Source: Bacillota bacterium
GTDB taxonomy: Bacteria > Bacillota > SHA-98 > UBA4971
Direction of reading: 5' to 3'
Length of the DNA: 64,000 nt
NCBI GenBank assembly: GCA_012842395.1
Contig: DUSX01000017.1
Location: 124,001-188,000 of the forward strand
Numbering within the stretch: the stretch's first letter is position 1; every line of letters begins with the position of its first letter. Position numbers and translations under genes: made by a program. Shown piece after piece: positions 4,321 to 6,580 of the stretch. A model generated the notes under the pieces. That model saw nothing but the letters and a program-made list of their open reading frames with translations. It ran no database searches and was not told where the DNA came from.

Positions 4321-5292
4321 TCACCCGGGGAAACCCTCCTGCAGCGCCCTGACAAGCTCGTCGACGCGTTCCCGGTCAGGAACCCAGTACAACGGGGAGA
4401 ACTCACCGGGGAGCGTCTCTGACACGATCTCGGCTCTGGTCCTCACGAAGAACCAAGCGATGGACGCCATGTCCCGCTGGGACATGTCCGTTCTGACATG
4501 CTCCATCAAGATGCCCAGGATCTCGCGCGCCTTGGACAGGTTCCGCACGTTCAAAGCCTGCCGCGCCACAGCCTTCAGAAGCGTCTGCTGGCGTTTCACC
4601 CTGTTGATATCCCCAAGGGCATCCGCGCGGAATCTCACATATCCGAGCGCCTGCGCCCCGTCCAGGACCTGCCTGCCCTTTTTGAGGTCTACCTTGAGGC
4701 CGCCAGCCCTGTCCACGTAGTGCATGTCCTTGTCGACATCGATCTCCACCCCTCCCAGCGCGTCGATGATGCGTTGAAACCCCCTGAAATCGACTTCCAC
4801 GTAGCGATCAATCGGCATGCCCAGGAGGTTCTCCACCGTCCTGCGAGTAAGCTCTTGCCCCCCGTACGTGTGCGACGCGTTTATCTTGTTCGTGCCGTGC
4901 CCTGGGATCTGCGCCCTGGTGTCCCTTGGGATTGATACCAGGTATACCCTGTTGACCTTGGGGTTCACTGACGCCAGCATTATCACGTCCGCCCTCACGG
5001 GCGCGTCTATCGGGTTCCCGTGCTCGTCATAGGTCCTGTCTGTTCCGAGGATGAGGACGTTCACGGGCCGGTCGTCAACGCCGAAAGCAGCTTCCGGAGC
5101 AAGCCACGACGACAAAAGCACGTATAACGTCACCACGAGCGCGGCAATAGCCACGACCACAACGAAAAGCACGCGCCAGAATGTAAAGTAGCTTGGTCTT
5201 TCCGACGGCTCGAACGGGCTCGGGCCCAGAGGCCCCGCGGCCCCTCCTCGTCCCAGCCCCGGGCCGACCGGGGCGATATCGCCGCCTCCCAT
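4321..5292 (-). CDS. LytR-CpsA-Psr (LCP) family glycopolymer transferase
   Basis: Membrane-anchored LCP enzyme, a family that transfers undecaprenyl-linked glycopolymers such as teichoic acids to peptidoglycan. A short proline/glycine-rich cytoplasmic segment is followed by one transmembrane helix (WRVLFVVVVAIAALVVTLYVLL) and the LCP domain: VNVLILGTDRTYDEHG, DVIMLASVNP, VSIPRDTRAQIPGHGTNKIN and GYVRFRADALGDINRVKRQQ, which hold the conserved Arg/Asp residues that bind the pyrophosphate lipid. ATG 5292 is preferred (GGGGTGGAG 4 bases upstream); GTG 5310 gives six more residues. The upstream region holds two perfect DnaA boxes and an inverted repeat, so control may be unusual. Confidence 0.9.
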   Translation of the reverse strand: MGGGDIAPVGPGLGRGGAAGPLGPSPFEPSERPSYFTFWRVLFVVVVAIAALVVTLYVLLSSWLAPEAAFGVDDRPVNVLILGTDRTYDEHGNPIDAPVRADVIMLASVNPKVNRVYLVSIPRDTRAQIPGHGTNKINASHTYGGQELTRRTVENLLGMPIDRYVEVDFRGFQRIIDALGGVEIDVDKDMHYVDRAGGLKVDLKKGRQVLDGAQALGYVRFRADALGDINRVKRQQTLLKAVARQALNVRNLSKAREILGILMEHVRTDMSQRDMASIAWFFVRTRAEIVSETLPGEFSPLYWVPDRERVDELVRALQEGFPG

Positions 5293-5388
5293 GTGCTCCA
5301 CCCCTAACACCCTCTTCCGTCCGCGTCAAACCGCATCTTCCGTCCGAAGCGAGTCATATTTCGGACCGCTTGTGCATAATCATCAGTG

Positions 5389-5419
5389 GGCAGTATAACC
5401 TTATTTGCCATATACTGCC
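5389..5419 (-). promoter_or_regulatory. Inverted repeat overlapping the putative lcp promoter -10
   Basis: A perfect 9-bp inverted repeat (GGCAGTATA, 13-bp spacer, TATACTGCC) occupies 5389-5397 and 5411-5419. Read on the minus strand, the second arm contains TATACT (5397-5392), a good -10 for the lcp gene about 90 bases downstream. The matching -35 position, 17 bases further upstream, reads AGGCAG, which is very poor. A symmetrical site over a -10 looks like an operator, and the weak -35 suggests activator dependence. Confidence 0.5.
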
Positions 5420-5421
5420 TT

Positions 5422-5451
5422 TTATCCACACGTTCCACAGGGTTATCCACA
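5422..5451 (+). promoter_or_regulatory. Pair of perfect DnaA boxes upstream of lcp
   Basis: Two exact TTATCCACA nonamers lie at 5422-5430 and 5443-5451 in the same direction, with start points 21 bp apart (two helical turns). A degenerate box (CGTTCCACA, 5431-5439) lies between them. From a start point near 5385 on the minus strand, the perfect boxes centre near -41 and -62, a typical activator position. No dnaA, dnaN or AT-rich unwinding element is nearby, so this looks like a regulatory DnaA-box cluster and not an origin. Confidence 0.65.
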
Positions 5452-5542: not shown

Positions 5543-6580
5543 TCACGATTCCAGATCGAGGTCGGGAATGGCGGGCACGTCCAGCGGGCTTTCCTTGCCT
5601 CTGATGAGCCGGAAATACCCCGCGCACGCCACCATGGCGGCGTTATCAGTACACAGGCCGGGCGACGGAAAAACCAGCCGCAGGCCGGCTTCTGACGCCC
5701 GGACGGCCATCCTTTCTCTGAGCCTGGAATTGGCGGCTACGCCACCCGCGAGAGCCACGATCTTGACGCCCGTTTCAAGCGCTGCCCGCACTGTCTTCTC
5801 CACGAGGACGCCCACCACGGCCTCCTGGAAACTCGAGGCGACGTCGGCCACGCCCGTCCTCACCTTTCTCACGTGGTTCAGGACGGCGGTCTTGAGCCCG
5901 CTGAAGCTGAAGTCGTACGATCCTTCTTCCAGGAACGCCCTGGGAAAGCGGACCGCCTCCGGGTCGCCGCTCCGCGCCGCTGCGTCGATCGCAGGACCGC
6001 CGGGATAGCCCAGCCCGAGGACCCTCGCGACCTTGTCGAACGCTTCGCCCGCGGCGTCGTCCCGCGTACGGCCCATTACTTCGTAGCTCCCGTGGTCTCG
6101 AAGGTACACGAGATCTGTGTGCCCACCAGACACCACAAGGCAGACGAAGGGGGGACGGAGGTCGGGGTGTTCGAGGAAGTTCGCGTACATGTGCGCCTCG
6201 ATGTGGTTCACCGCAACAAACGGCAGCTGCCGGGCGAGCGCCAGGGCCTTTGCGGCCGAGAGCCCGACCAGGATGGCGCCGACAAGCCCGGGACCGCGTG
6301 TTGCCGCGACCGCGGTTACGTCGGACAGGCGAAGACCCGCGTCGCCGAGAGCCTGGTCGATGACGGGGATTATCGTCTCCACATGCCTCCGGGAGGCGAC
6401 CTCAGGCACGACGCCGCCGAACCGCTTGTGCAAGTCCACCTGGGACGCCACCACGTTCGACAAAAGCCGCAGGCCAGAGGCCTCGCACGACCCGTCTGCC
6501 CTCAGCACTGCGCACGCTGTCTCGTCACAGCTTGTCTCGAGCCCGAGCACGCAAAACGCCGCACCGTCAGCGCCGACCAT
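5543..6580 (-). CDS. tsaD: tRNA N6-threonylcarbamoyladenosine transferase TsaD
   Basis: Catalytic subunit that transfers the threonylcarbamoyl group from TC-AMP to A37 of ANN-decoding tRNAs (t6A), acting with TsaB and TsaE. Family features are complete: LGLETSCDETACAVL at residues 12-26, the metal-binding motif HIEAHMYAN, SGGHTDLVYL, the PGGPAID segment, FSFSGLKTAV and LAGGVAANSRLRE near the C-terminus. The length of 345 residues is typical. It is the last gene of the tsaE-tsaB-rimI-tsaD cluster, and its first codons overlap the rimI stop by 14 bases, so translation is probably coupled. Confidence 0.97.
   Translation of the reverse strand: MVGADGAAFCVLGLETSCDETACAVLRADGSCEASGLRLLSNVVASQVDLHKRFGGVVPEVASRRHVETIIPVIDQALGDAGLRLSDVTAVAATRGPGLVGAILVGLSAAKALALARQLPFVAVNHIEAHMYANFLEHPDLRPPFVCLVVSGGHTDLVYLRDHGSYEVMGRTRDDAAGEAFDKVARVLGLGYPGGPAIDAAARSGDPEAVRFPRAFLEEGSYDFSFSGLKTAVLNHVRKVRTGVADVASSFQEAVVGVLVEKTVRAALETGVKIVALAGGVAANSRLRERMAVRASEAGLRLVFPSPGLCTDNAAMVACAGYFRLIRGKESPLDVPAIPDLDLES

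Follow-up and report, generated by a model that had tools for sequence, protein, structure and literature searches.

A tsaD-linked DnaA-box cluster in a Bacillota genome is probably an inherited DnaA sink and not mainly a switch for lcp

The closest described counterpart of the locus reported here is found in Bacillus subtilis, where the region 'downstream of gcp; downstream of ydiF' (gcp is tsaD) belongs to a set of eight regions that bind DnaA with high affinity (PMC4447404). Its Kd for ATP-DnaA is 0.15 uM, and DNA recovery at 55 nM was 16-fold higher with ATP-DnaA than with ADP-DnaA (PMC4447404). Deletion of six non-origin clusters in B. subtilis leads to early initiation, and putting one of them back gives partial relief (PMC5295017; PMC13220808). 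Like the gcp/ydiF DnaA-box cluster (DBC), the boxes described below lie outside oriC and directly 3' of tsaD.

The window, i.e., the whole stretch of 64,000 nt that was analysed (G000:C17:124001-188000), belongs to a Bacillota genome of 3.14 Mb. Its boxes are located in a 250-bp spacer between tsaD and lcp in the minus-strand gene order tsaE, tsaB, rimI, tsaD, lcp, as annotated with NCBIfam and Pfam (Table 1). Two perfect DnaA boxes (TTATCCACA) start 21 bp apart, and a degenerate box (CGTTCCACA) abuts one of them, so that successive box starts are spaced 9 and 12 bp. Read in the sense of tsaD, the order is TGTGGATAA-CCC-TGTGGAACG-TGTGGATAA, with starts 12 and then 9 bp apart. The two same-direction boxes and the degenerate one between them are thus present as the preliminary description had reported. 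The spacer also contains a short open frame (MANKVILPTDDYAQAVRNMTRFGRKMRFDADGRGC, 5304-5411, minus strand) that ends at the lcp start and is probably a chance occurrence. A search of the locus for conserved RNA found nothing in Rfam up to E 0.1, and comparison with a phage collection gave no match that would indicate a phage origin.

Table 1. Features of the tsaD-lcp spacer and its flanking genes (window coordinates)
Feature	Position	Strand	Remarks
tsaD, gene preceding the cluster; last of tsaE-tsaB-rimI-tsaD	5543..6580	-	TIGR03723, 425 bits
DnaA box 1, TTATCCACA (TGTGGATAA in tsaD sense), tsaD-proximal	5443..5451	+	invariant in the genus and in other families of the class
Middle DnaA box, CGTTCCACA, degenerate (3 mismatches)	5431..5439	+	perfect in five congeners
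DnaA box 3, TTATCCACA, abuts middle box	5422..5430	+	
9-bp inverted repeat including TATACT	5389..5419 (5389-5397 / 5411-5419, 13-nt loop)	.	unique to the window species
-35-like ATGGCA	5406..5411	-	located 10 bp 3' of box 3; most congeners have TTGGCA/TTGACA here
-10-like ACTGAT, weak	5382..5387	-	relatives have AATAAT/TATAGT, spaced 17-18 bp
Extra TTATGCACA, fits TTATNCACA	5371..5379	-	not conserved in congeners
lcp (LytR-CpsA-Psr family), next gene	4321..5292 (about)	-	PF03816; alternative GTG at 5310

Perfect boxes occur 15 times in the genome, compared with about eight expected at its G+C content. Four of the 15 surround dnaA (contig C9:14875-16185) and mark oriC; because these copies sit at the dnaA locus, we regard TTATCCACA as the organism's own box. 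The DnaA of this genome retains the GRDHTTVLHA recognition motif. Judged by their sequence, the boxes of the window are DnaA boxes, and they form a cluster outside oriC that comprises two perfect boxes and a degenerate one here and three boxes in congeners. Single boxes do arise by chance, as the expected number implies, but only about 0.0005 same-strand pairs within 25 bp are expected per genome, which makes a chance pair unlikely. A fortuitous pairing of 9-mers is also refuted by conservation across families, and we give it practically no weight.

The triple box with its 12/9 spacing was found between tsaD and lcp in all five congeners, four of which carry three perfect boxes, while the fifth (G005) has one mismatch in the third box. 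The layout common to the window and its congeners consists of two abutting boxes, 3 bp, and a third box. Two further families of the class contribute three genomes (L063, L064, and L065) that show the same layout with one to two mismatches in single boxes. The boxes are thus shared with relatives at the position upstream of lcp, as the preliminary description would lead one to expect. The window copy, with only two perfect boxes, is the most eroded among the window species and its congeners. The triple box was not found in the sister genus (six genomes) nor in G016.

We assessed the linkage of such clusters to tsaD across the phylum using tsaD genes from 199 Bacillota genomes, with 4 kb on either side examined in 60 of them, one per family. 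A cluster was defined as a perfect box with another box, of at most one mismatch, within 60 bp. A cluster was present 0-600 bp 3' of tsaD in 35 of the 60 families; about 40% of the sampled families had none at tsaD. Upstream, all 600-bp bins between -4800 bp and the end of tsaD (56-60 loci per bin) were free of clusters, and successive bins beyond 600 bp downstream held 1, 0, 3, 1, and 0 clusters. Most boxes 3' of tsaD were in the tsaD sense (160 of 179), and their commonest spacings, 9, 12, and 21 bp, are those of the window. The 18-mer TTATCCACATTATCCACA, which represents two abutting boxes, matched 37 sites in 28 genomes with up to one mismatch, and 16 of these sites lay no more than 900 bp 3' of tsaD; the reversed 18-mer, used as a control, matched zero sites. 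None of 17 genomes from other lineages, mostly Actinomycetota, had a cluster 3' of tsaD.

Many different genes follow the cluster: lgt, murC, a radical SAM/DUF512 gene, paaK, nuoE, ispD, genes for 5-formyltetrahydrofolate cyclo-ligase (5-FCL), a laccase-type protein and a hydroxyacid dehydrogenase, an acetyltransferase gene on the opposite strand, and lcp. The cluster is linked to tsaD independently of the downstream gene, and its retention there regardless of which gene comes next points to selection on the cluster itself. The literature searched contained no statement on conservation of the tsaD cluster across Bacillota; the key B. subtilis paper (Okumura 2012) lay outside that search.

Box clusters were also observed elsewhere. 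In G028, a cluster (L190, C1:2137544-2141561) is separated from tsaD by 20 kb and flanked by an integrase-like gene and a 5-FCL gene, a position that suggests an insertion between tsaD and the cluster. Four genomes of different families (L186 1976-2104, L188 1908-2340, L192 1986-2060, and L193 2001-2018) have a second recurrent cluster, located upstream of hpf (S30AE long form); in L186, the gene that borders this cluster opposite hpf encodes a ComF-like phosphoribosyltransferase.

Within the class, the spacer carries a further conserved element. In the nine class members with a triple box, which represent three families, a promoter-like block oriented toward lcp begins 9-10 bp 3' of the third box: a TTGGCA-like -35, 17-18 bp, AATAAT or TATAGT, and then TATATGC, all in register, while the rest of the spacer is highly variable. 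The box-to-promoter spacing is held at 9-10 bp in the class, although the window's own elements are weak, and no consistent distance was seen outside the class, across the phylum. On the strand opposite lcp, all nine members (the window, L052-L056, and L063-L065) also carry a TCATAWT-like motif followed at exactly 14 bp by a CATATACA-like one (TCATATT, N14, CATAATCA at 5354-5382, plus strand, in the window). This element, which we take to resemble a sporulation sigma-E promoter, points through the DnaA boxes, and the genomes encode sigma-E.

A different promoter, TATACT (minus strand, 5397-5392) overlapped by a perfect 9-bp inverted repeat, had been proposed earlier. Both sequences exist, but they are confined to this species and at chance level: the repeat occurs in no congener, and the window holds 10 distinct perfect 9-bp inverted repeats with loops of 3-20 nt. 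We rejected the repeat as an operator on these grounds. The placement of the boxes at about -41 and -62 depended on TATACT and is unreliable for the same lack of conservation.

The proposal attached to that promoter was that DnaA bound to these boxes regulates lcp transcription and thereby ties the attachment of cell-wall glycopolymers to replication. Its parts fared differently. The DnaA boxes, their conservation, and a promoter-like block at fixed distance in nine class members of three families, beside lcp on the same strand and in an otherwise variable spacer, all agree with it, and the block leaves added control of lcp by DnaA possible in the class. The idea that the site exists for lcp is contradicted by the unrelated downstream genes across families, some on the opposite strand (L112; ydiF in B. 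subtilis), and by the absence of the cluster at lcp elsewhere and from the sister genus and G016. Upstream of lcp, the boxes were not conserved independently of tsaD: none of 14 genomes with lcp away from tsaD had an upstream cluster, nor did four other families with the tsaD-lcp order (L084, L102, L114, and L115). Given also the poor promoter elements of the window and the inconsistent box-to-promoter distance outside the class, we consider regulation of lcp an unlikely main role. The literature search returned no paper joining DnaA boxes and LytR-CpsA-Psr proteins.

Two other roles were weighed. Bound DnaA could act as an insulating roadblock between the tsaD operon and the gene that follows, as the position of the boxes exactly at the tsaD 3' end and their single direction might suggest; yet there is no reason for such a device to be specific to tsaD, and terminators would suffice, making this very unlikely. 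Even less credence is due to the boxes being part of a second replication start, a relic or cryptic origin. Tandem same-direction boxes do occur at oriC as well (L198), but the oriC of this genome surrounds dnaA on contig C9 with boxes of its own, and the tsaD-lcp spacer is short.

The reading that we favour, and consider probable, is that the window site is a slightly eroded local copy of a gcp/tsaD DnaA-box cluster inherited within Bacillota, most likely serving as a DnaA sink. As the cluster lies 3' of tsaD in much of the phylum whatever the next gene, control of initiation is the likelier function: most likely, it mainly helps to control the timing of replication initiation and not mainly to switch lcp. 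DnaA, probably DnaA-ATP, would be held cooperatively on the head-to-tail abutting boxes. The distance between tsaD and dnaA is 10-27% of the chromosome in 14 complete or near-complete genomes that carry the cluster (for G130 and G030, computed with a rounded chromosome length). Such an origin-proximal locus would be duplicated early and take up free DnaA after initiation, and this uptake would restrain initiation. The position of tsaD may simply reflect conserved gene order. In the two complete genomes whose tsaD is >30% of the chromosome from dnaA, G201 and G084, no cluster was found at tsaD (in G084, by the 18-mer only).

We presume that the gcp cluster was among the six deleted in B. subtilis. 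Since the effect there requires removal of all six, a single site may do little. If the cluster affects lcp transcription at all, this would be a secondary function in the class, where the conserved promoter-like block beside the boxes suggests some added local role. A broader version, which we hold only tentatively and consider rather unlikely, is that the box module linked to tsaD represents an ancestral device for initiation control in Bacillota, a functional counterpart of datA kept ~10-27% of the chromosome from oriC, whose early duplication would time the drop in free DnaA, and that in the class this module also came to serve the lcp promoter as a DnaA-responsive element.

In over half of the Bacillota families sampled, a cluster known from B. 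subtilis has been retained next to the same gene with a common arrangement of boxes. Natural variants in which it is lost, shifted, or separated from tsaD are numerous and could be used to test its function.

Like the DnaA-controlled promoters of B. subtilis sda and yqeG, the window has boxes clustered upstream of a gene and, in the class, close to promoter-like elements, but its cluster is linked to the upstream tsaD and not to the downstream gene. The E. coli loci datA, DARS1, and DARS2 resemble it by analogy only, as loci outside the origin that bind DnaA and determine how much of it is available; they differ in working through DnaA-nucleotide switching (datA with IHF). The datA/DARS systems and IHF are reported to be absent from B. 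subtilis (PMC13220808). The gcp/ydiF DBC has about 10 predicted sites, whereas the window has two perfect boxes and one degenerate box, and tsaD is followed by lcp on the same strand in the window but by the convergent ydiF in B. subtilis. In relatives of the window organism, the cluster is origin-proximal, as is the gcp/ydiF DBC.
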